IMG/VR virus record: IMGVR_UViG_3300020165_000007
Coordinates: 62,001 to 126,000 of that record
Length of the DNA stretch: 64,000 bases
Origin: a virus
Reading direction: 5' to 3' (one strand)
Position numbers and translations under genes: made by a program. Positions 40,768 to 60,227 of the stretch are shown here, piece by piece. Numbering within the stretch: the first letter of the stretch is position 1; every line of letters begins with the position of its first letter. The notes beneath the pieces are model-generated. The model made no database searches. It worked only from the letters and a program-made list of their open reading frames with translations, and had not been told where the DNA came from.

Positions 40768-41598
40768 ATGGAAAAATTAAATATATCAGTGGTTTTACCT
40801 GTAGAATCTTCTAAACATAAAAATTTTACAGACCTATTTAAATCTTGTATTGTTTCAGTACAACAACAAATTAAAGAATCTGTAAGAGGTGAAAATGTTA
40901 TAGATGATATTGAGTTGGTTATAATCCATTCAGGAGAAGAGAGTTTAGTAGAATTAATTAATAATTCAGACTTTAGTGGGTTAACTACTAATATCATTCA
41001 TAATGAAGGAGATACGGACTTTAGTACTCAAGTTAATTTAGGTATTGAAAAGTCGTCTCACGACTGGGTAACAATATTAGAATTTGATGATGAGGTATCG
41101 AGCATATGGTTTAGGAACGTTTATAAATATATTAACGCATACCCACACATAAAAGGGTTTTTACCTATCGTTGTTGATACTGACGAAAATGACACGTTTG
41201 CAGGATTTACTAATGAAGCTACATTCGCGGCTAACATGAATAGTGAAATTGGAATACTAACCAACGAAGTACTACTAAACTATCAGAATTTCCAAACGAG
41301 TGGTATGGTTTTTAAAAAATCAATATTTGATGACTTTGGTGGTTTTAAGAAATCCTTTAAGTTAACCTTTGTATATGAACTATTATTAAGGTTGACTTAT
41401 AACTCTGTAGAAATAATGACTATACCTAGAATTGGGTATAAACACTCCAATATGAGGGAGGGGTCAATTTTTTGGAACTATAAAAATGGAGAATATCCAT
41501 TAACTCAAGAAGAAGTTTCTTTTTGGATTGAATCAGCAAAAAAAGAACATTTCTTTAAAGATGATAGAGATATAAAATATGAAGTGATTGATATTTAA
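40768..41598 (+). CDS. Glycosyltransferase family 2-like
   Basis: A 276 aa protein. NISVVLPVESSKHKNFTDLF is a GT2-type start, NEGDTDFSTQVNLGIEKSSH is the helix before the acidic strand, and VTILEFDDEVSSIWFRNVYK holds the DD motif. SGMVFKKSIFDDFGGFKKSF near residue 195 is the acceptor-side segment. It ends on the first base of the sigma factor start. Confidence 0.78.
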   Translation: MEKLNISVVLPVESSKHKNFTDLFKSCIVSVQQQIKESVRGENVIDDIELVIIHSGEESLVELINNSDFSGLTTNIIHNEGDTDFSTQVNLGIEKSSHDWVTILEFDDEVSSIWFRNVYKYINAYPHIKGFLPIVVDTDENDTFAGFTNEATFAANMNSEIGILTNEVLLNYQNFQTSGMVFKKSIFDDFGGFKKSFKLTFVYELLLRLTYNSVEIMTIPRIGYKHSNMREGSIFWNYKNGEYPLTQEEVSFWIESAKKEHFFKDDRDIKYEVIDI

Positions 41599-42350
41599 TG
41601 TTATTAAATGAAACGGGAAATACTGTAAATCCTGAAACTAAAGGTAAGAGGGGAAGAAAGGCTAAATCTCAAAACTATTTTGATGTGAGAGAGGAGAAGG
41701 CTGTTAGGATGTTCCTGACCGCCTCTACATGGGAGGAAAAAAACACCATATACAATGAGTTTTTAAGGGGACCTTTAGATAAAATGATAGAATCTATTAT
41801 TAGAAGATATAAACTATATCGTAAAAATATGGAGTTTAGAGATATTCATAATGATACCCATTCATTTTTAATGACTAAAGTTGATAAATTTAAACCTGAT
41901 AAAAATAAAAAGGCGTACTCTTATTTTGGTACTATATGTAAAAACTATTTAATGGGTCAAATAATAAAAGACCAAAAAGAACAAAATAGAAAAATATCAT
42001 ATGAGGATATCACGACTAAATTAGAAAGTAGACCTGACATGGTATATTATTTAGAGTATGAAAAATTACTACCAGAAAAGGTAATAAAAGAGTTTATAAA
42101 AGAACTAAATAAGTTTATTGATAATACTGATTTAAATAATAATGAATTAAAATTAGGATACGCATTAATTGAGTTATTTGAAAATTATGAGGATATATTT
42201 ATTGGTACGGATAATAATAAATTTAATAAAAATATCATATTATTATCATTGAGAGAAATGACTAATTTAACCACTAAAGAAATAAGGACTTCTATGAAAA
42301 AGTTTAAAAATCTATACTTTGATTTGACCGTTAAATTAAATAACCTATAA
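41598..42350 (+). CDS. Late RNA polymerase sigma factor, T4 gp55-like
   Basis: A 250 aa protein. The central part, FKPDKNKKAYSYFGTICKNY, then LMGQIIKDQKEQNRKISYED, matches the region-2-like core of T4 gp55-type late sigma factors (F-x-x-x-x-x-x-x-A-x-x-Y-F, helix, basic K-x-x-K-E). The N-terminus has a basic GKRGRKAK segment. It would direct host RNA polymerase to late promoters, and the TATTTATA octamers in this window are the natural candidates. It is longer than T4 gp55 (185 aa) at the C-terminus. Family identity is fairly secure. Target choice is inferred. Confidence 0.8.
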   Translation: MLLNETGNTVNPETKGKRGRKAKSQNYFDVREEKAVRMFLTASTWEEKNTIYNEFLRGPLDKMIESIIRRYKLYRKNMEFRDIHNDTHSFLMTKVDKFKPDKNKKAYSYFGTICKNYLMGQIIKDQKEQNRKISYEDITTKLESRPDMVYYLEYEKLLPEKVIKEFIKELNKFIDNTDLNNNELKLGYALIELFENYEDIFIGTDNNKFNKNIILLSLREMTNLTTKEIRTSMKKFKNLYFDLTVKLNNL

Positions 42351-49705: not shown

Positions 49706-49966
49706 ATGGAAAATGAAAATCAAAATGTAAATACTCTATTTAACGCTATTAATTACAGAGAACCTCACGAGTTAAATAAATTTATAGACGAAATGAATTT
49801 AGACCAAGCATTATTTTGTTTAGTACATGCCGCTAGATACGCACATAATAAAGGTATATACGGTATAGAGGAGTCTGAAGTAGTATCAAAAGCAATTAGA
49901 GCGTTAACTACTCCACAACCTTTATCAGAGGACGAAAAAAATGACGAAGAACCAACTGTCGAGTAA
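49706..49966 (+). CDS. Unrecognised 86 aa protein
   Basis: The frame is open further upstream to 49553, but that part is antisense to the neighbouring gene and reads as poly-Phe, so the ATG at 49706 (MENENQNVNTLFNAINY) is the likely start. It is preceded by AAAAAAGGAA, one of the few Shine-Dalgarno-like stretches here. The protein is acidic and helical (LDQALFCLVHAARYAHNKGI, then IEESEVVSKAIRAL). No family was recognised. It overlaps the next gene. Confidence 0.6.
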   Translation: MENENQNVNTLFNAINYREPHELNKFIDEMNLDQALFCLVHAARYAHNKGIYGIEESEVVSKAIRALTTPQPLSEDEKNDEEPTVE

Positions 49967-50144
49967 AATCATAGAACTGCAATCAGAGATTACAACTGCA
50001 ATTTTAAAAGGTCATAAATCTAATGATGATGATATTTTTAATTCACATAGAATAGAGTTAATGATATTACGTTGTATGTTATATGGTGAAGATTCTAAAA
50101 TTTGTAAAACAGAAAAGTCTAATTGTAGAAGTTGTAAAAAATAA
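49941..50144 (+). CDS. Unrecognised 67 aa protein with C-terminal Cys cluster
   Basis: It starts inside the end of the gene before it (26 base overlap). Helical, with a Cys/Lys-rich C-terminus (ICKTEKSNCRSCKK) that could bind zinc. An intrinsic terminator begins at its last base. No family was recognised. Confidence 0.5.
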   Translation: MTKNQLSSKIIELQSEITTAILKGHKSNDDDIFNSHRIELMILRCMLYGEDSKICKTEKSNCRSCKK

Positions 50145-50172
50145 AAAAGGGAACCTAATTGGTTCCCTTTTT
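50144..50172. terminator. Bidirectional intrinsic terminator
   Basis: Perfect 12 bp stem AAAAAGGGAACC / GGTTCCCTTTTT with a 5 base loop. A and T runs flank it on both sides, so it can stop plus-strand transcripts from 49706-50144 and minus-strand transcripts from the capsid gene ending at 50195. Confidence 0.85.
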
Positions 50173-50194: not shown

Positions 50195-51991
50195 TTATCT
50201 TAATTCTTTTAAGTCAAATGTTCTAACACCATCAACTGTAATCTTACCGTAGAAACGGTTGTTCACCATCTTCTTAGCGTATCTAGTCATGATACCCTTA
50301 ATTGGTGTAAAGTTGAATGGGTTATACATTGTAGGTGTTAACTGAAGCGGTACATACGGTGCATATACATATCCAGTATCAAGTAATGATGAACCTTTGT
50401 GTCCCAACAATACTGTGTTTGGTGGGAAGTAAGGGTCACGGTAAACTTGATATCTACCTGACAATGTTCCAACTCTTTCAATACCCATGTTATACTGGTC
50501 CTGGTCAGGAGCCGCGTTTGAAACGTGGAAGTACTCAAGGTCGTCAAAAATAGCAGAAATTTCAGAAGAAACAACAACCCAATTTGCACCACCTCTTAAA
50601 GTTGACTTATGGATTTGAGCTGAAATCTGATTGATTGCTGTAATCAATGTTTGATTCCAATCCTTTTGGTTATAGTTTACAGAACCGTTAGAAATTCTTC
50701 TCCAACCGTTGTAATCCCATCTTAAGCTCCACGCCGCACCTTTTCTTAAGTCTCTTAAGATTTCACGGTCAATCTCAGCTGCAACTTGCTCTGACAACAG
50801 TGCTGTCAATTCAGCTTCAGCATCAATATTATGGAATGCAGATACGTCTTGTGCGAGTTCTGGTGACCATTGTGCTCTTAACTTTCTTTCTGTAACAGAA
50901 ACAGTAACAGCGTCAAGGTCGAATGAAACCTCACCAATCTTATCTTCAAACTCAAGACTTTCATAAACTCTGTGATAAGACTCAAAAGTATCTCCTGATG
51001 CGATAGTAGTTCCGGTATAACCATCGATTGAACAGTTTGGACATCCTACAACAGGTGTTGAGAAGTCTAACTCTAAATAGATTTTACCTGTGACATCACA
51101 GATATCTTCGTATCTTCCACCAGGACCAGGATGAGAACCTGAATAGAAAGTAGTTTTTTGCTCACTACCATACTGTACAATACCTTTACCGTACTTTTGA
51201 GTAACTACTCTAAAGTTATAATACACATCGGGTGCAGCACTTTCATAAGTTTCTAATGAAGCTAAGAAATCTTCAGTATCCATTTCATTTCCATCGGGTC
51301 CGATTAATTTACCAGCTCCTGATGAACTAAATCCTGATAACATAAAGATTAATGACCTAACGTTACCATCTGCCGCTGGGTTACCAGGGCTACCTGCCGC
51401 AGCACCTAAAGCTAATCCCAAAGTAGTACCAACTAATTCACCGTTAGACCATACTGCAGGTACTAAGGTATTAGTTTGAGCACTCCACTGACCTTTTGAA
51501 TAATCAAATAATCCTGCGGGGTCAGAGTTTGGTGTACTTCCTTCATAAAATCTGTCATAAAGGTTAGTTCCTGAATCGTATCCAGCCGATGGGTCTGACT
51601 CGTTATTACCAGGTGCTCCGAATGGTTGTCTGTGTGAACCAGCTCCTTGAGCACCTTCTTGGATTTTTGGTACAAAGTAAAATAACTTACCGATAGGTAA
51701 ATTCATCGCTTGAACAGAAACGATATCGTTAGCCAATAACTTAGAGAATACTCTTCTGATGATTGGAAAAACAACAGTTTCAAATGAACCTGAACTGTCT
51801 GAAGATGATGCTTCGTTTATCAAATGTGACGCTTGGTTTTCATACAATTGCGCCATGTTTTCTTTAATGTGTCCTTTAAGACCGTCGAGGAACCCTAATT
51901 TGTCCCACTTATTGATTGTGTCCTCCTTGATAACTTTTAAGTGCTTAAGACCAATGTTACCAACTAGACCTGATTCTAATAATGCTCCCAT
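50195..51991 (-). CDS. Major capsid protein, gp23-like
   Basis: A 598 aa protein with the T4-type capsid signature VVFPIIRRVFSKLLANDIVS followed by VQAMNLPIGKLFYF near residues 73-105. The prohead cleavage site is visible as HLINE|A at residues 56-61, matching the (I/L)-x-E rule of gp21-type proteases, so about 60 residues would be removed during maturation. The C-terminal half contains DREILRDLRKGAAW and GTLSGRYQVYRDPYFPPNTV, as in gp23. It follows the scaffold gene in T4 order and is closed by the terminator at 50144. No exact late motif lies directly before it, so it is probably read from the scaffold promoter. Confidence 0.93.
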   Translation of the reverse strand: MGALLESGLVGNIGLKHLKVIKEDTINKWDKLGFLDGLKGHIKENMAQLYENQASHLINEASSSDSSGSFETVVFPIIRRVFSKLLANDIVSVQAMNLPIGKLFYFVPKIQEGAQGAGSHRQPFGAPGNNESDPSAGYDSGTNLYDRFYEGSTPNSDPAGLFDYSKGQWSAQTNTLVPAVWSNGELVGTTLGLALGAAAGSPGNPAADGNVRSLIFMLSGFSSSGAGKLIGPDGNEMDTEDFLASLETYESAAPDVYYNFRVVTQKYGKGIVQYGSEQKTTFYSGSHPGPGGRYEDICDVTGKIYLELDFSTPVVGCPNCSIDGYTGTTIASGDTFESYHRVYESLEFEDKIGEVSFDLDAVTVSVTERKLRAQWSPELAQDVSAFHNIDAEAELTALLSEQVAAEIDREILRDLRKGAAWSLRWDYNGWRRISNGSVNYNQKDWNQTLITAINQISAQIHKSTLRGGANWVVVSSEISAIFDDLEYFHVSNAAPDQDQYNMGIERVGTLSGRYQVYRDPYFPPNTVLLGHKGSSLLDTGYVYAPYVPLQLTPTMYNPFNFTPIKGIMTRYAKKMVNNRFYGKITVDGVRTFDLKELR

Positions 51992-52023: not shown

Positions 52024-53568
52024 TTATAATTTACCCATTAAATCTTTCATTCTTAAGAACTGTGGATTTTCATAGGTTTTGCTCTCGATTAAGTTATTCG
52101 CAGAACCATTAGATGGTGATTTTTGAACTTTAGATTGTACTGATTCAGTAACAACCGACTGTGCTTTTCCACCTAAGTCTTCTTTGAGTGACTTATAAAG
52201 AGACTTTGACTCTTTAATAGTTTCGACACCATCGAAACGTCTTAGTATATTTATTTTTTCTTTCTTTGTCGTAGTGTGTTCAGTGAACAAACGAGTAGCG
52301 TAAGCTAAGTTAGAATTGAAAACTGCAACCTCGTTAAGTTTTTCTTTAAAGATGTTAAGTGCCTTACGGTACTCTTCATTCTTTTCTCTTAACTGTGTAA
52401 TTTCTTTATTAACTGACTCGTTTCTTTGTGCGGGTCTCTTAAGAGATTTAGGAAAGTTAGCAGGTTTTTTATTAGTCATTCTACCGTTAACATTAGAACG
52501 AGCTGAACCTTCGTTAGCTTCGTAATCTCTGTGGGACCTAGACTCATCGCCTTTGTTTCCACCATACTTACCTTCGTTAGCTTCGTAATCTCTGTGGGAC
52601 CTAGACTCATCGCCTTTGTTTCCACCATACTTACCTTCGTTAGCTTCGTAATCTCTGTGGGACCTAGACTCATCGCCTTTGTTTCCACCATACTTACCTT
52701 CGTTAGCTTCGTAATCTCTGTGGGACCTAGACTCATCGCCTTTGTTTCCACCATACTTACCTTCGTTAGCTTCGTAATCTCTGTGGGACCTAGACTCATC
52801 GCCTTTGTTTCCACCATACTTACCTTCGTAATTTTCCTCTTTGTGATGTTCTTCAGAATCATAGTGTGCGTCTTTTTTCAACTTCTCAATTTGTGAGTAG
52901 TCGTCCTCAGCCGAGTCACCATAATAGTTTCCGTCATCTTCTCCGATTTCTAATTCGACATCTTCTTCACCAATCTCAATTTCATACACGACTTCCTCCT
53001 CTTCCATTTCTGCAAGAGCTTCTTCTTTATCTTCAGATTCTAAACGAATCTCATATTCTACATCTGCTTCATCATCTTTTAAATTAATACCCTCTTCGTC
53101 TTGTGTGACAATGACACCGTCATCTTCACCCATAGCCTTAAAGACCTTTAAAATTTCGTCATCGGAAGCACCTGTTAAATCAAGTGGTAATAGAACTTCT
53201 TCTTCATCATCGACTTCTAAATCATCACCAGGTAAATCAGTCATTAACATTTCCTCATCACCTAAGTCTAACTCTTCGTCGTTATCAGAGTCCATTTCAA
53301 TATCTCCAAGAACTAAATCTTCAAGACCTTCAATATCATCCTCTCCATCATCATCCACATCAATGTCTAAATCAAGAACTTCTTCTTGTTCTGACATTTC
53401 TGTTTCAGAATTTTTAACCTCTTCTTCTTCGAGAGATTCTTTTACTAATTCACTGATTTCTTCCTTCATAGTAGAAGCAAGTATTCCTTTTGCATTTTCT
53501 GTAATGGCTTCTTGTAGATTTTCCATCTGCAATAAAGCTTCCTCAACTAGTGTTTTTTTGTCTGCCAT
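52024..53568 (-). CDS. Prohead core/scaffold protein, gp22-like, with five tandem repeats
   Basis: A 514 aa protein starting at ATG 53568 (MADKKTLVEEALLQMENL). The frame is open to 53619, but that part contains the promoter motif. The N-terminal half is very acidic (runs of Asp/Glu), and the middle has five exact 21-residue units beginning EGKYGGNKGDESRSHR. The C-terminal part is helical (ITQLREKNEEYRKALNIFKE, then KLNEVAVFNSNLAYATRLFT), like T4 gp22. Position between protease and capsid genes matches T4. It probably forms the core on which the prohead is built and is then degraded by the gp21-type protease. Confidence 0.8.
   Translation of the reverse strand: MADKKTLVEEALLQMENLQEAITENAKGILASTMKEEISELVKESLEEEEVKNSETEMSEQEEVLDLDIDVDDDGEDDIEGLEDLVLGDIEMDSDNDEELDLGDEEMLMTDLPGDDLEVDDEEEVLLPLDLTGASDDEILKVFKAMGEDDGVIVTQDEEGINLKDDEADVEYEIRLESEDKEEALAEMEEEEVVYEIEIGEEDVELEIGEDDGNYYGDSAEDDYSQIEKLKKDAHYDSEEHHKEENYEGKYGGNKGDESRSHRDYEANEGKYGGNKGDESRSHRDYEANEGKYGGNKGDESRSHRDYEANEGKYGGNKGDESRSHRDYEANEGKYGGNKGDESRSHRDYEANEGSARSNVNGRMTNKKPANFPKSLKRPAQRNESVNKEITQLREKNEEYRKALNIFKEKLNEVAVFNSNLAYATRLFTEHTTTKKEKINILRRFDGVETIKESKSLYKSLKEDLGGKAQSVVTESVQSKVQKSPSNGSANNLIESKTYENPQFLRMKDLMGKL
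52510..52824 (-). repeat. Five tandem 63 bp repeats in the scaffold gene
   Basis: Units at 52510-52572, 52573-52635, 52636-52698, 52699-52761 and 52762-52824 appear identical at DNA level and encode a 21-residue unit in frame. Confidence 0.92.
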
Positions 53569-53942: not shown

Positions 53943-54665
53943 TTAATAACCTAAATAATCGGATAACTTTTTCATTAAGTCAACACTTTTACCTAAACTA
54001 CCATCTATATTCTGTTCAGTAGCTCTATTCTGTGTCTCCTCTTCAATATTTTCTTCATACTTACCTTTATCGTCTTTATTTAAAAATAAATAAGCTCCGG
54101 GTGTTGAAGGTGACGAGACCAAATCAAAACATATTAATTCAAAATCCTCTTGAACTTCATTTCTTTCTCCTTTCTTTACTAGTGAACCTACTCCACGAGA
54201 AGATACTCCCATAGTAACCCCTTGTCTCATTAAGTTGGCCGCTTGGTCTCCGGGACAAGATACGACACCTCTTTCATGAAATCCTGGTGAGGTTAGTAAT
54301 TTAATCTTACCCATAAGAGTGTTACCTTCCCACCACACATCTGTTATAAGATGAGAAACACGGTCTAAATCAATTAAAGACGATTCAGGGTGATTAAGTT
54401 CAGATATTGATAATCCCTTTTCAATTGCCTTTTTATAATTATCGGCTTCACGTCTTAATATTTTTTCAGGATATACTCTACCATTTCTATTTGGTGTATC
54501 AAATTTCTGTAAAGTCGCATAAAACTCAAAGGGTTTAGAGTGTTCTAGTTGTCCGTAAGATTCTTTAATTACTTTAGAGTTCCTACCATCCTTAGGGTTT
54601 ATTGACCCAGCATCCCACTCAACTAAAATACCTTTACCTGTATCGTTTGGTCCTAATATTTTCAT
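53943..54665 (-). CDS. Prohead maturation protease, gp21-like
   Basis: A 240 aa serine protease of the phage prohead type. FEFYATLQKFDTPNRNGRVY is the common N-terminal region. The catalytic His is His92 in ISELNHPESS, and the Ser lies in GVTMGVSSRGVGSL (155/156). It would cleave scaffold, core and capsid proteins at (I/L)-x-E sites, such as the one seen in the capsid protein here. Its place between the core-region genes and the scaffold gene matches T4 gene 21. A late motif lies 11 bases before the start. The Glu/Asn/Gln-rich C-terminal tail is likely removed in maturation. Confidence 0.9.
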   Translation of the reverse strand: MKILGPNDTGKGILVEWDAGSINPKDGRNSKVIKESYGQLEHSKPFEFYATLQKFDTPNRNGRVYPEKILRREADNYKKAIEKGLSISELNHPESSLIDLDRVSHLITDVWWEGNTLMGKIKLLTSPGFHERGVVSCPGDQAANLMRQGVTMGVSSRGVGSLVKKGERNEVQEDFELICFDLVSSPSTPGAYLFLNKDDKGKYEENIEEETQNRATEQNIDGSLGKSVDLMKKLSDYLGY

Positions 54666-54686: not shown

Positions 54687-55130
54687 TTAGACCAACTCTT
54701 TTGTCGATTTACTCTTATGTACTTTGAAATAATTTATCCCTTTTATGTTGTCTTTGTATACCGCTCTAAGTATATCTTTTATTTTTTCCCTCAAGATTAA
54801 GGATTTAAAATCTGTAGACTCTTTAACAAATAAGGTTATTTCTAAGTTCATAAAACTTCTTTTACCTTTTTGAATTCCACTACTTCTTAAGTCTAAATCC
54901 ACTATATTAAATTTCTCAAATACTAAAGGGTCACAAATCTCATGTAATGTCTGTTTTATAGTTTTTTCTAAATAACTTGTCGCTCTATCCCAGTTATCAA
55001 ATTCTTTTATGGGTTCTACCCATGTCTGTAATACAATATACAGTGATTTTAAATTTTTTGCATCTACCGTCCCATAATAACATTTTATATCGCTAAATAA
55101 TTTTAGCTGTGATGTTTTTCCTTTTTTCAT
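54687..55130 (-). CDS. Unrecognised 147 aa protein of the head block
   Basis: Alpha/beta composition (LKSLYIVLQTWVEPIKEFDN, then RSFMNLEITLFVKESTDFKS). No family was recognised. In T4 the small core genes 67 and 68 lie between portal and protease, and this gene occupies the same interval, but its sequence is neither strongly acidic nor Gly-rich as core proteins often are. It ends two bases before the late motif of the protease gene. Confidence 0.55.
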   Translation of the reverse strand: MKKGKTSQLKLFSDIKCYYGTVDAKNLKSLYIVLQTWVEPIKEFDNWDRATSYLEKTIKQTLHEICDPLVFEKFNIVDLDLRSSGIQKGKRSFMNLEITLFVKESTDFKSLILREKIKDILRAVYKDNIKGINYFKVHKSKSTKELV

Positions 55131-55204
55131 ATTTTAGCATAACTTTAAAAGTTTATTTATTTAAATAAAATATAGTTTAATAATGGTAATATGTCAAAAA
55201 CATA

Positions 55205-55212
55205 TATTTATA
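55205..55212 (+). promoter_or_regulatory. Late-type promoter motif TATTTATA before bS21
   Basis: Exact match on the plus strand, 17 bases before the ATG at 55230. A small inverted repeat (ATATGT / ACATAT, arms 55189-55194 and 55200-55205) abuts it and might be an operator. There is no Shine-Dalgarno site. Confidence 0.65.
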
Positions 55213-55229
55213 TTACATAAAACCGTATA

Positions 55230-55415
55230 ATGTTAATAATAGAGGTAAAAAATAAGAATATTGAATCAGCTTTGAAGAACTATAAATATAAAGTTTATAG
55301 AACTAAGCAGATGCAGAAAATCAATGAAAATAAAGAGTATACGAAACCTTCGGTTGAAAGAAGGGAGGAGCGCAAAAAAGCTATCTACGTAAATAAAAAA
55401 AGAAACGACCTTTAA
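55230..55415 (+). CDS. rpsU: Ribosomal protein bS21, phage-encoded
   Basis: A 61 aa protein with the bS21 layout: MLIIEVKNKNIESALKNYKY (strand, then A-L-(K/R)-x-(Y/F)-K), a central basic helix, then YTKPSVERREERKKAIY, which matches the (F/Y)-x-K-P-S-x-x-(R/K)-R-x-x-x-x-x-A motif of Bacteroidota bS21. bS21 binds the small subunit near the 3' end of 16S rRNA and affects start selection. In Bacteroidota it helps hide the anti-Shine-Dalgarno sequence. It is the only plus-strand gene inside the minus-strand head block and has a late-type motif. Replacement of host bS21 late in infection is inferred. Confidence 0.85.
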   Translation: MLIIEVKNKNIESALKNYKYKVYRTKQMQKINENKEYTKPSVERREERKKAIYVNKKRNDL

Positions 55416-55513
55416 CTGTTAGAGTACCACTGGTCGAAAATATCCAAATTCTTTCTTATCTCAGCGTCACTAACAGTAGTATTGGACCATTTAAGATATT
55501 TTCTGTCTGACAT
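55412..55513 (-). CDS. Small ORF, 33 aa, downstream of the membrane protein
   Basis: ATG at 55513-55511 overlaps the stop of the holin-like gene (TAATG) and opens MSDRKYLKWSNTTVSDAEIR..., ending at TAA 55414-55412, which overlaps the end of the convergent bS21 gene. The coupling and full use of the gap suggest a real peptide. No family was recognised. Confidence 0.4.
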   Translation of the reverse strand: MSDRKYLKWSNTTVSDAEIRKNLDIFDQWYSNS

Positions 55514-55743
55514 TATTCTTCGACCCCTCTACTCCTTGAAAATTTTTCAAGTGTGGTGAATCCTAGTCCGGCTCCAACAATATACATCATACCATCCCAA
55601 ACATATTTTTGTAGAGGTATTTCCATAAAGATGTTGGATATAAATGCAACACACATCATGAAAAATGCTATTATAGTAACAAATCTTTTTGATGATTTTT
55701 GACCATCGACGTCACCTAATAATGATGTGAAAAATTTTCTCAT
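55513..55743 (-). CDS. Small membrane protein, holin-like
   Basis: A 76 aa protein with two hydrophobic segments, RFVTIIAFFMMCVAFISNIF and WDGMMYIVGAGLGFTTLEKF, and a charged C-terminus. Size and topology fit class II-type holins and other small phage membrane proteins. It lies in the head block, not beside a lysin, and no endolysin is seen in this window, so the holin call is tentative. The start overlaps the upstream gene by four bases. Confidence 0.5.
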   Translation of the reverse strand: MRKFFTSLLGDVDGQKSSKRFVTIIAFFMMCVAFISNIFMEIPLQKYVWDGMMYIVGAGLGFTTLEKFSRSRGVEE

Positions 55744-56500: not shown

Positions 56501-58402
56501 TCAATCATTTAGTAATTCGTTCAATTTATCTTCAATTTCACCTAACGACTGTCTTCCTTTAGATAAGTCTAATATAGTTTTTCCATTAATAAAATCATCT
56601 TCTAATAATATATCTAAATCTTTATTACTAATAAATCTTTCAGGTGTTAAATCTCCCCCACCTTCGTCACCACCTGCGTCACCACCTGCGTCACCACCTA
56701 AATCACCACCTAAATCACCACCTAAATCACCACCTAAATCACCTCCTAAATCACCTCCTAAATCACCTCCTAAATCACCAGTCGACATTCCTCCCATATC
56801 ACCTACTTCGGAGTCTGTTGTTTCGTCACCCATAGCATCACCACCTTCACCAGGTTTATTACCGTATAACTTATCTATATTAGCAAATATACCCGTTTTA
56901 CTTATTACTTCAGATGTCTTTTCTAATTCAGCGGCAACTGCTTTTTCCATTCTTTGTTGTTGAATATCCAACTTAATTTCATCATCACTAAATCCGAGAA
57001 TGTGTTTCTTAGCCCAAGATGATGAAACAGGTAGAATACCATTACCTGGGTCACTAACAGCATCCCTATAAAGTTGTATTTTCTGTGTCCATTGTTCCAT
57101 TTTTAATAATTCTGCTTGTGCAGATGGATTAGTTAACCCTAAAGTAAAGTTACCTAATTCGTCTTCAAAACCTAAAAGGTATAAATGAACTATAGCTATT
57201 TTATTAAGTTCTTGAACCATAGATTTTTGTATTCTATTTATAGTTCTAGCGAACCTAATATCTTGTAAAGATAGACTTTTACCGTCTCCAACAACCTCTT
57301 CAAAACCTAAGAAAGCTTTAGGTACCCTCAAAGAAGTTAATAACTTTTTTTGTATGTACTCAATATCCGCAATTTCAGATAGGTTCTGAGCCCCTGGTAA
57401 TGTATCTATAGGGTTAGGAGCATTAGGGTCCCTAACAGGAATAAAGTAATCTTGGTCAACAGCCATTTGATTATATCTTAAGTCCACATTTCCATTGTTG
57501 GAGTCAACTACTTGGTCTCTTTTGAACTTATTAGCGACTCGTTGTACATAAGGTTCAACATCCTTATCATCCATGTTACCTACAAATATTTTAAATACCC
57601 TTCTTTCTGGTGCTCTAGAAGTCCTATAGATTAACATAGCATCTTCTGATAAGATTAATTGTTTCCATATACGTCTACCTTTTTCTAACATAGATGTACC
57701 GTATGGTAGTTTTCTATCATCACCTAATAATCTAAAGTGAGCGACTTCCCAAGTATTGAAAGTTATATCTTTATTCTGCCACAAAAATTTTAATGAATCA
57801 TTTTCACTTTCCGTTGAGTTTCTTTCAGGTTTAATTTTCATACCTCTCTCCTGTCTAGTAATCTCAATATTAGGTAACTGTTGAGCCCCCATAATACCTT
57901 TTTCAGGGTCTAATTTTAAATACACAAAATTATCACCGTACTTACATGTATTACGTGTCCACATAGGTAAGTTAGTATTAATATCTAATCTATTATTAAA
58001 TAAATCCGCTAAAACTGATTTTATTCTTTTACTTTCAGAGTAAATTTGTAATATATATCCGTCTTCATCGGGTGTAGTAGACTCTTCAGAATAAATGTCT
58101 AAAGCTGCTGAAATTTCAGGAGTATACTCCATACTCTCATAGTCGTAAAAAGATGCTAAACGTGTGGGTTCATAATAAACCGCTTGGGTATATAAATTGT
58201 TTTCGATTTTTTGCCATTGCTGACCTAAATATAGTGTTTGTTGAGCTTGTAATTTCTCTCTTTCATATTCTTTTTTGTCGGTAGTTTTTAATATTTGTTT
58301 TTTATCAAAATTATAAACCGGGGCTTGTTGGTCTAAGGTAGAATCAGGTCCAAATACCTTAGTCAACCTTTGCCATATAGTAAAATTGTTATTATCAGCC
58401 AT
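56501..58402 (-). CDS. Portal protein, gp20-like
   Basis: A 633 aa protein. YYEPTRLASFYDYESMEYTP followed by EISAALDIYSEESTTPDEDG is the T4-type portal signature. NTCKYGDNFVYLKLDPEKGI, YGTSMLEKGRRIWKQLILSE and RAPERRVFKIFVGNMDD follow, with LRVPKAFLGFEEVVGDGKSL and RFARTINRIQKSMVQELN in the clip/stem region. The C-terminal extension carries a Gly/Asp/Leu array (DLGG repeated about seven times) that is not part of T4 gp20 and is probably flexible. It forms the dodecameric ring for DNA packaging, next to the terminase gene as in T4-like phages. Confidence 0.93.
   Translation of the reverse strand: MADNNNFTIWQRLTKVFGPDSTLDQQAPVYNFDKKQILKTTDKKEYEREKLQAQQTLYLGQQWQKIENNLYTQAVYYEPTRLASFYDYESMEYTPEISAALDIYSEESTTPDEDGYILQIYSESKRIKSVLADLFNNRLDINTNLPMWTRNTCKYGDNFVYLKLDPEKGIMGAQQLPNIEITRQERGMKIKPERNSTESENDSLKFLWQNKDITFNTWEVAHFRLLGDDRKLPYGTSMLEKGRRIWKQLILSEDAMLIYRTSRAPERRVFKIFVGNMDDKDVEPYVQRVANKFKRDQVVDSNNGNVDLRYNQMAVDQDYFIPVRDPNAPNPIDTLPGAQNLSEIADIEYIQKKLLTSLRVPKAFLGFEEVVGDGKSLSLQDIRFARTINRIQKSMVQELNKIAIVHLYLLGFEDELGNFTLGLTNPSAQAELLKMEQWTQKIQLYRDAVSDPGNGILPVSSSWAKKHILGFSDDEIKLDIQQQRMEKAVAAELEKTSEVISKTGIFANIDKLYGNKPGEGGDAMGDETTDSEVGDMGGMSTGDLGGDLGGDLGGDLGGDLGGDLGGDLGGDAGGDAGGDEGGGDLTPERFISNKDLDILLEDDFINGKTILDLSKGRQSLGEIEDKLNELLND
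56664..56779 (-). repeat. 12 bp repeat array encoding DLGG/DAGG in the portal tail
   Basis: About ten 12 bp units with small variations encode the acidic glycine-rich C-terminal linker of the portal protein. Confidence 0.85.
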
Positions 58403-58445: not shown

Positions 58446-60227
58446 TTATCTACGATTACCTCCAAATAACCAACCGTAATCCTCATAATCTTTTTTAGTG
58501 TAACCATCAATTCGTCTATGGTGATTGTATTGATTAGCGGGCATTACAGGTAAACCTGGATTAAACTCTTTAGATGAATTTTTTACCGGAGTTTCATTAA
58601 CTAACCAACTTTCCATCATAGCCTTTGTTTGGTCGGTCACCTTTTCAAGTTTCGTGAAAGAATTTTCACCTACATATATTGCCATTGCCATGGCCATGAT
58701 AAGGTCGTCGTGTTGACCCTTAATATGGTCAGGCCTTCCATTTACATAGACAAAAGTATTTAGCTCGTTCATAAGACGTGTCGAACGAACAATAAAGTTA
58801 TGTCTTAAAGCCTCCTCAAAAGAAGCCACAATTTGAACTCTTTTTGAGTTAAAGTTTAATCCCGGTATTTTCTCTATAGTTGATGGGTTGTACTTCCACT
58901 TATCAGCAACATTAGTACCTTCAACATATAAATCTTTATAGTTCATTTCTTGCAATTTTCTTGCGGTAGAAACCCCCATACCTCCAGTGATATCAATAAC
59001 GACAAAGGCAGAATACATTGTCGCCCACTTAAATGCGACTTCAGCAGCGACATCAGGAGGTATTTTACCTAAATACTCTAAAACTTGTTCTCTCTCATCA
59101 AAATCTATAATACAAAAGGTTGTAAAGTCTTCACTATCACCACGAGATACATCAATACCCATAATATATTTGTGACCGACAACAGGTTCTTTCCACTGCC
59201 ATAACGCACCACCCATAAATTTATTTTCTGGTTCCACAATAAAATTCTCCTTTATTTTTTCCACAGTATCACTAGGTATTACATTATCACCTGAACCCAA
59301 GAAATTACACTCTAATTCCTGAGCAATTTTACGTCTATCAAACTTAAGCTTTTTAGCCATACCTTCGAACCACGTAGAGTATGGCTTATATCCCTCAAGA
59401 AACTTAGATTTAATCTCTTCAAAATTTCTTTCCATAGGTGATATGTGACCATACTCTATAATAATCTCGTCATCATTGTAATCCTCCCTATTTAACATAT
59501 AATGAACAATATCATTACATTTAATAAGTTTTAAATCTTTAGCGTACCGAGGGTCACGGTACCAAAACATTTCAGTAATTTTAAAGTCATTCATACCCCT
59601 TAAACACTGGTCGTAAATAGAGTAATATATTGGGTCAAATCCATTAGGGGTAGATATTACAATTACTTTACCTCCTGTAGATAGGGACGCCATACACGCA
59701 GACCAAAAGTCATTATCGGCTTCAATAAATGCCGCTTCGTCAAACACAAGAATGGTAGGGGTATATCCACGAAGTGCGTCTTTCGATGTTGCAACTGACT
59801 TTACTTCACACCCATTAGTTAATTTATAATGTCTTTGAGAGTTCTTTTCAATGGAGAAATCTACCCCAAACCATGAGGGCCATTGGTCCATGAAAGCTCT
59901 GATTTTACTTGCCATCTCAACAGATGTATCAAGTTTATTGGCTATGATAAGGATTTTTTCTGGTTTAGTTTTAGAAGCTGTAACTAATTTTTTAGATATC
60001 CATGCAGATGTTACAGTAGACACTCCAGCTTGTCTATATTTAAGGGCTATGTTTTCTTCAAAAGTATCATAATCATTTATTAGATATTCTTGGTCGGGAA
60101 ATAATTTTAAAGGAACATATTTAGACTGAGTATTATCATAAGTCTGTAGATATGTTTTTAACGCATACGAGGTGTCTTTTACACACCTCGCATACTCCAA
60201 TAATACCTTTTCTTTTGTTAACGCCAT
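58446..60227 (-). CDS. Terminase large subunit, gp17-like
   Basis: A 593 aa packaging motor. The ATPase part has a Walker A-type loop NIALKYRQAGVSTVTSAWI (residues 59-77), Walker B PTILVFDEAAFIEAD near 165 and a coupling segment VIVISTPNGFDPIYYSIYD. The nuclease part has YIMGIDVSRGDSEDFTTFCI near 356, FVVIDITGGMGVST and GQHDDLIMAMAMAIYVG near 503, giving the usual acidic triad. No intein or intron is visible. It lies upstream of the portal gene on the same strand. The small subunit was not found. Confidence 0.95.
   Translation of the reverse strand: MALTKEKVLLEYARCVKDTSYALKTYLQTYDNTQSKYVPLKLFPDQEYLINDYDTFEENIALKYRQAGVSTVTSAWISKKLVTASKTKPEKILIIANKLDTSVEMASKIRAFMDQWPSWFGVDFSIEKNSQRHYKLTNGCEVKSVATSKDALRGYTPTILVFDEAAFIEADNDFWSACMASLSTGGKVIVISTPNGFDPIYYSIYDQCLRGMNDFKITEMFWYRDPRYAKDLKLIKCNDIVHYMLNREDYNDDEIIIEYGHISPMERNFEEIKSKFLEGYKPYSTWFEGMAKKLKFDRRKIAQELECNFLGSGDNVIPSDTVEKIKENFIVEPENKFMGGALWQWKEPVVGHKYIMGIDVSRGDSEDFTTFCIIDFDEREQVLEYLGKIPPDVAAEVAFKWATMYSAFVVIDITGGMGVSTARKLQEMNYKDLYVEGTNVADKWKYNPSTIEKIPGLNFNSKRVQIVASFEEALRHNFIVRSTRLMNELNTFVYVNGRPDHIKGQHDDLIMAMAMAIYVGENSFTKLEKVTDQTKAMMESWLVNETPVKNSSKEFNPGLPVMPANQYNHHRRIDGYTKKDYEDYGWLFGGNRR

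Follow-up and report, generated by a model that had tools for sequence, protein, structure and literature searches.

The rpsU gene at positions 55230–55415 (+) of the window (the whole stretch of 64,000 nucleotides analysed here, bases 62001–126000 of a 270,383-base virus record) encodes, judging from its sequence, a ribosomal protein bS21 of the Bacteroidia (Tyr54) type. It lies within the block of head genes on the opposite strand, is preceded by a late-type TATTTAT motif and starts without a Shine-Dalgarno (SD) sequence. Chen et al. 2022 (PMC9723584) had already published the genomic context, the expression late in infection, the Bacteroidetes hosts, the Tyr54 residue and the ribosome-hijack idea; the accessible part of that paper mentions neither the promoter motif nor the absence of an SD. 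What is new here is the conserved TATTTAT motif, the start without an SD, unlike that of rpsU in Flavobacterium, the best studied of the likely hosts, and a sigma-like protein encoded at 41598–42350. We give roughly even chances to the interpretation that the phage gene is an unregulated late source of working Bacteroidia-type bS21 that keeps ribosomes replete.

No other ribosomal protein gene is as common in phages as that of bS21. The predicted product of the copy in the window begins at an ATG codon, comprises 61 aa in the list of open reading frames and includes YTKPSVERREERKK. The bS21 pattern recognised in the preliminary description was borne out by a profile search, in which Pfam PF01165 (Ribosomal_S21) scored 42.1 bits (cut-off 27; E = 6.8e-11), aligning residues 4–55 of the product with positions 2–54 of the 55 in the profile; this is the single PF01165 match in the whole virus record. 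The top PDB matches are solved bS21 chains, including that of F. johnsoniae (7jil_z, E = 1.4e-6), and the PHROG family annotated as ribosomal protein S21 was also matched (E = 0.0023). The score for the NCBIfam equivalog TIGR00030 was 25.7, slightly below the cut-off of 28.95, as expected because the phage protein is a diverged copy. Tyr53 of this protein is equivalent to Tyr54 of F. johnsoniae, and the window copy thus carries the aromatic residue 54 that characterises the Bacteroidia-type, anti-SD-sequestering bS21.

Gene calls from 50195 to the end of the window are all on the minus strand except rpsU, in agreement with the initial claim that it is the sole plus-strand gene in a 14-kb minus-strand head block. 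Its minus-strand neighbours encode the major head protein (50195–51991; phrog_138, E = 7.2e-65), a repeat-rich scaffold-like protein, a prohead protease (53943–54665; Pfam Peptidase_S77, E = 1.1e-22), the 147-aa protein CN147 (54687–55130), a convergent 76-aa membrane-like protein (55513–55743; weak PHROG membrane protein match, E = 0.066), an unassigned 246-aa protein, the portal protein (56501–58402; phrog_213, E = 2.7e-66; TATTTAT at −17) and the large terminase subunit (58446–60227; phrog_2, E = 2.4e-38), whose closest isolate relatives are the Flavobacterium phages immuto, with 26% identity. The scaffold-like protein contains five near-identical copies of the unit EGKYGGNKGDESRSHRDYEAN (52500–52860, −), the other frames also being open across the repeats, and the C-terminal stretch of the portal (56640–56840, −) contains many LGGD repeats. 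A small plus-strand operon (about 49706–50144) sits just outside the head block; two small overlapping ORFs there (49706–50172, +; one found by eye, the other of 67 aa) are convergent with the major head gene and end at a bidirectional terminator-like hairpin. A search for Rfam elements and tRNAs near the bS21 gene in the window found none; twelve phage tRNA genes were recorded, ten of them clustered (L035:17842–19681 and L036:126–10421).

According to Chen et al. 2022 (PMC9723584), the same layout occurs in 47 huge phage genomes with predicted Bacteroidetes hosts, and in lake metatranscriptomes bS21 transcripts accompany those of structural genes, pointing to late expression. The preliminary description had expected late control and this context to be informative; the motif is indeed shared with virion and lysis genes, and the question was largely answered in that study.

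Scans of IMG/VR yielded 171 usable loci, which reduced to 53 distinct sequences. In 38 of these 53, the head block also holds CN147 as the divergent neighbour directly beside bS21. These 38 syntenic loci are mutually related, like the other distinct loci, and do not amount to 38 independent events. CN147 is possibly the counterpart of the bS21_CN of Chen et al. Its AF2 model is confident (pLDDT 87), and its fold matches, all weak and none significant, include phage neck and tail-terminator proteins, suggesting that it may possibly be a structural protein of neck or tail-terminator type. The idea of CN147 as a ribosome factor found no support, the weak fold matches pointing toward phage neck proteins.

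Tyrosine occupies position 54 in 38 of 38 syntenic copies and in 50 of the 53 distinct phage copies. The median dN/dS among close relatives was about 0.04, a rough figure from 24 usable pairs whose dS was mostly high and partly saturated, and indicates that the phage gene is under purifying selection. In a phylogeny with host bS21, proposed at the outset as a check, a single supported branch close to Flavobacteriaceae and other hosts of the Tyr54 type contains the majority of the phage copies. Built from only 64 columns, the tree is poorly resolved, with one host row inside the main phage branch. Neither the phage copies nor the host copies are united in a group of their own, the starred branches forcing at least three label changes, and the tree therefore does not demonstrate a single capture. 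A search of the phage collection for a cultured Bacteroidota phage with a matching bS21 found none, the matches coming from one Salicola phage and otherwise from records that are uncultured or unassigned.

The late-type motif attributed to rpsU in the preliminary description was located as TATTTATA at 55205–55212 (+), 25 nt upstream of the ATG codon, where it is a candidate late promoter −10 element. For motif statistics, genes were called across 264 kb of the record with a simple codon model of our own, and the resulting 155 upstream regions were compared with dinucleotide shuffles. TATTTAT lay 17–28 nt ahead of the start codon in 29 of the 155 regions, as against 2.7 in the shuffles (sd 1.5, maximum 8, 200 rounds), a large effect size, the motif window having been picked, like the SD window used below, after viewing the data. 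The reverse complement, ATAAATA, was found in 7 of the same regions versus 3.2 in the shuffles, a slight excess that is expected because divergent genes share their upstream region. Interpreted as a T4 late box, TATAAATA, the element TATTTATA would point in the opposite direction; the genome-wide counts favour the plus-sense motif, and the minus-strand T4-type box was rejected on these numbers. Among the relatives, TATTTAT precedes bS21 in 38 of the 38 distinct syntenic loci and in 2 of the 15 found in other contexts, that is, in 40 of all 53 distinct copies versus 1.3 in shuffles. Should TATTTAT serve as a −10 element, late mRNAs would have leaders of only some 10 nt. A search of the literature for TATTTAT as a late promoter of phages found no relevant record.

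A second motif, TATATTTG, which we take to be the TAnnTTTG element of Bacteroidota promoters, was found upstream of 7 phage genes versus 0.2 in shuffles. The annotated genes behind TATTTAT are mainly those of virion and lysis (connector, endolysin, portal, a protease in a block of large genes, and bS21), and many further ones, some of them coding for very large proteins, lack a functional assignment; those behind TAnnTTTG encode an ATP-dependent protease, a peptidase, a nuclease, a DNA methyltransferase and an SSB-like protein. With few annotated genes and a classing that was not blinded, this distribution supports TATTTAT as a putative late and TAnnTTTG as a putative early promoter class. The motif offers a means of sorting phage genes by their likely timing without a cultured phage. 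The ATP-dependent protease (phrog_4871, E = 4.5e-243) and the peptidase lie at L034:2523–5679 (+), each behind TAnnTTTG, and are probably early because of this host-like motif. McNutt et al. 2023 (PMC9976891) speculate that such phages might turn a protease on host bS21.

On the minus strand, a candidate promoter of the divergent gene (TTGACA-17-TATATT, 55169–55197) matches the consensus at 11 of 12 positions, although matches of this type are no commoner in the region than in shuffles. In an alignment of close relatives, the GTCAAAAAC and AAATATA blocks are conserved at this site, and so is the block ATGTCAAAAAC, whose minus-strand reading is TTGACA, with TATATT 17 nt away. The ATGTCAAAAAC block is thus probably part of the promoter of the divergent gene, conservation being a better argument than the consensus match. 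The conserved GTCAAAAAC block was also considered as part of the bS21 promoter; its simpler reading is the −35 (TTGACA) of the divergent gene.

The protein encoded at 41598–42350 (+) is a candidate late sigma factor resembling gp55 of T4. It gave the single match in the record to phrog_234, the T4 gp55 family, with E = 0.0094 genome-wide and a weak E = 0.079 library-wide; hhalign to T4 gp55 aligned 52 columns with a P-value of 0.0099 and a probability of only 4%. Its model is of low confidence (pLDDT 69.5), and its fold matches are mostly sigma factors, sigma region 2 included, with non-significant E-values. A search of solved structures with its profile returned chance matches only, and the sigma family phrog_12791 gave no match, an uninformative outcome because the controls gave none either. 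The protein is widespread, with relatives encoded in at least 597 IMG/VR stretches. The product is likely a sigma-like protein and perhaps a distant gp55.

The start of the phage gene differs markedly from that of Flavobacterium rpsU. Pairing with the 13-nt 16S tail, calculated by the same method for both, gave +1.0 kcal/mol for the phage bS21 start, that is, no SD, and −18.6 to −21.6 kcal/mol for Flavobacterium rpsU starts (ten distinct starts from 80 loci). The phage gene therefore lacks the extended SD of the SD-autoregulated Flavobacteriales rpsU genes. Energies of −6 or below were reached at the bS21 start in 2 of 38 syntenic relatives, and two non-syntenic relatives have an SD of −6.8. 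Two close syntenic relatives, L149 (674–714) and L151 (3960–4000), have bS21 with a GGAG SD (−9.5 and −7.4 kcal/mol) and retain the TATTTAT box beside it, offering a natural comparison. Genome-wide, 3.8% of 236 phage genes reached −6, against 3.0% in shuffles and 14% in mock upstream windows. None of the 29 TATTTAT genes did so, versus 4% of the other phage genes, both classes being without SDs. Across 50 genomes of the Bacteroidota phylum at large, 64% of the rpsU starts reached −10; among Tyr54-type hosts, a count by eye found such a strong SD in only about half (5 of 11). One genome in this survey, G119, has three bS21 matches and a few have two; the extra matches possibly come from phages or other mobile elements.

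In F. johnsoniae, the extended SD of rpsU is best read by ribosomes lacking bS21 and thus works as an autoregulatory sensor; such ribosomes initiate poorly on SD-less mRNAs, and almost all Flavobacterium host genes are SD-less (McNutt et al. 2023, PMC9976891). The authors also suggest that host autoregulation might counter a phage bS21, and the accessible text contains no discussion of the SD of phage rpsU genes. Since the SD of Flavobacterium rpsU runs this autoregulation and the phage start has none, the phage copy should, on sequence grounds, escape the bS21-sensing feedback of the host. This argument holds solely for a Flavobacteriales-like host, because a strong SD is present in some but not all host rpsU genes of the Bacteroidia type. 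The pairing of an SD-driven Flavobacterium gene with an SD-less phage gene leads to a testable prediction, namely that the phage copy is immune to the host bS21 feedback loop.

These findings suggest a mechanism for the supply of bS21. A Bacteroidia-type rpsU, presumably captured from a host and retained under purifying selection, would be transcribed late from its own plus-strand promoter, back to back with a structural-gene promoter. Its SD-less mRNA would be translatable by replete ribosomes and uncoupled from the host feedback. Because Tyr54 is conserved, the protein is expected to associate with 30S subunits, where it would continue to sequester the anti-SD, and the replete ribosomes would then support mass translation of SD-less virion mRNAs with efficient SD-less initiation. 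The supply of phage bS21 would at the same time keep a presumably SD-regulated host rpsU repressed, and host rpsU is the one host mRNA that phage bS21 should clearly disfavour. Against this mechanism, L149 and L151 do have an SD, and the activity of only about 5% reported for ribosomes with pelagiphage bS21 fits inhibition better (Mizuno et al. 2019, PMC6375957). A fuller scenario, which we offer tentatively and lean against as a whole, is that phage rpsU genes in this Bacteroidota lineage dropped the SD-based bS21 sensor of the host. Late bS21 supply would then no longer follow the need of the ribosomes and would hold them with the anti-SD hidden, to the benefit of late mRNAs whose SD-less leaders of about 10 nt start just after a TATTTAT read by a phage sigma factor.

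The preliminary description had interpreted the gene differently, proposing that hiding of the anti-SD could shift initiation in favour of the phage late mRNAs. The Tyr54-type bS21, the motif common to virion and lysis genes and the SD-less phage genes uphold its premises; the selecting step is the weak point, because host mRNAs and both classes of phage genes are SD-less and hiding alone cannot discriminate between them. A late translation bias was also proposed by Chen et al. 2022 (PMC9723584), who describe phage bS21 as retaining Tyr54 with a diverged first helix, and in the resulting model phage bS21 replaces the host protein and its N-terminal helix selects phage late mRNAs. We consider this unlikely, although three of the positions called divergent in that study are changed here too (R21, F23 and T28 of F. 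johnsoniae being Y, V and Q in most syntenic copies), the gene has a late motif and a position in the head block, and the bS21 of pelagiphage HTVC008M is incorporated into E. coli ribosomes (Mizuno et al. 2019, PMC6375957). The motif class shows no difference in SD energy from the other phage genes that the anti-SD could select, and helix 1 is not known to recognise any feature of mRNAs.

The low activity of ribosomes carrying the pelagiphage protein, which made GFP in vitro at only about 5% of the wild-type level, could instead indicate host shut-off, with phage bS21 making ribosomes poorly active or displacing the host protein, late host translation being blocked and phage factors compensating. 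Conservation of the divergent sites among phage copies would suit this, but the figure comes from a heterologous ribosome, Tyr54 and the C-terminal K51, A52 and R46 are conserved, and expression together with virion genes falls at the time of greatest phage need for translation, making shut-off improbable. Least probable is a role outside the ribosome, as a regulator or as a protein packaged or used in the virion, an idea of packaging raised by Chen et al. 2022 (PMC9723584) to which the location among head genes and the conserved structural-like divergent neighbour would lend themselves, whereas the conserved residues are those of the 16S-contacting C-terminal half and the low dN/dS is that of a bS21 sequence.

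The phage gene and its motif can be compared with known systems. As in T4 late transcription, which uses the gp55 sigma factor and TATAAATA boxes, one short AT-rich box precedes late genes and a gp55-like candidate is present; unlike in T4, the box is TATTTAT in sense orientation and the gp55-like protein is a weak candidate. The HTVC008M bS21 (PMC6375957) is likewise phage-encoded and under purifying selection, and its entry into ribosomes was demonstrated. It belongs, in contrast, to the alphaproteobacterial lineage and represents a separate capture. To our knowledge, the ribosomes of its host lack the Bacteroidia anti-SD pocket. F. johnsoniae bS21 (rpsU; PDB 7jil) is 37% identical to the phage protein over the aligned length and has Tyr54, K40, S42, R46, K51 and A52 in common with it, whereas R21, F23 and T28 are changed in the phage; its gene starts behind an extended SD of about −19 kcal/mol and is autoregulated through it, and the phage gene has no such SD. 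The closest correspondence is with the Bacteroidetes huge phages of clades a–e of Chen et al. 2022 (PMC9723584), in which bS21 likewise lies between two hypothetical genes and runs in the opposite direction to TerL, portal, protease and MCP, here within a few genes of all four, and which share Tyr54, a diverged helix 1, predicted Bacteroidetes hosts and a large genome (a 270-kb record here).
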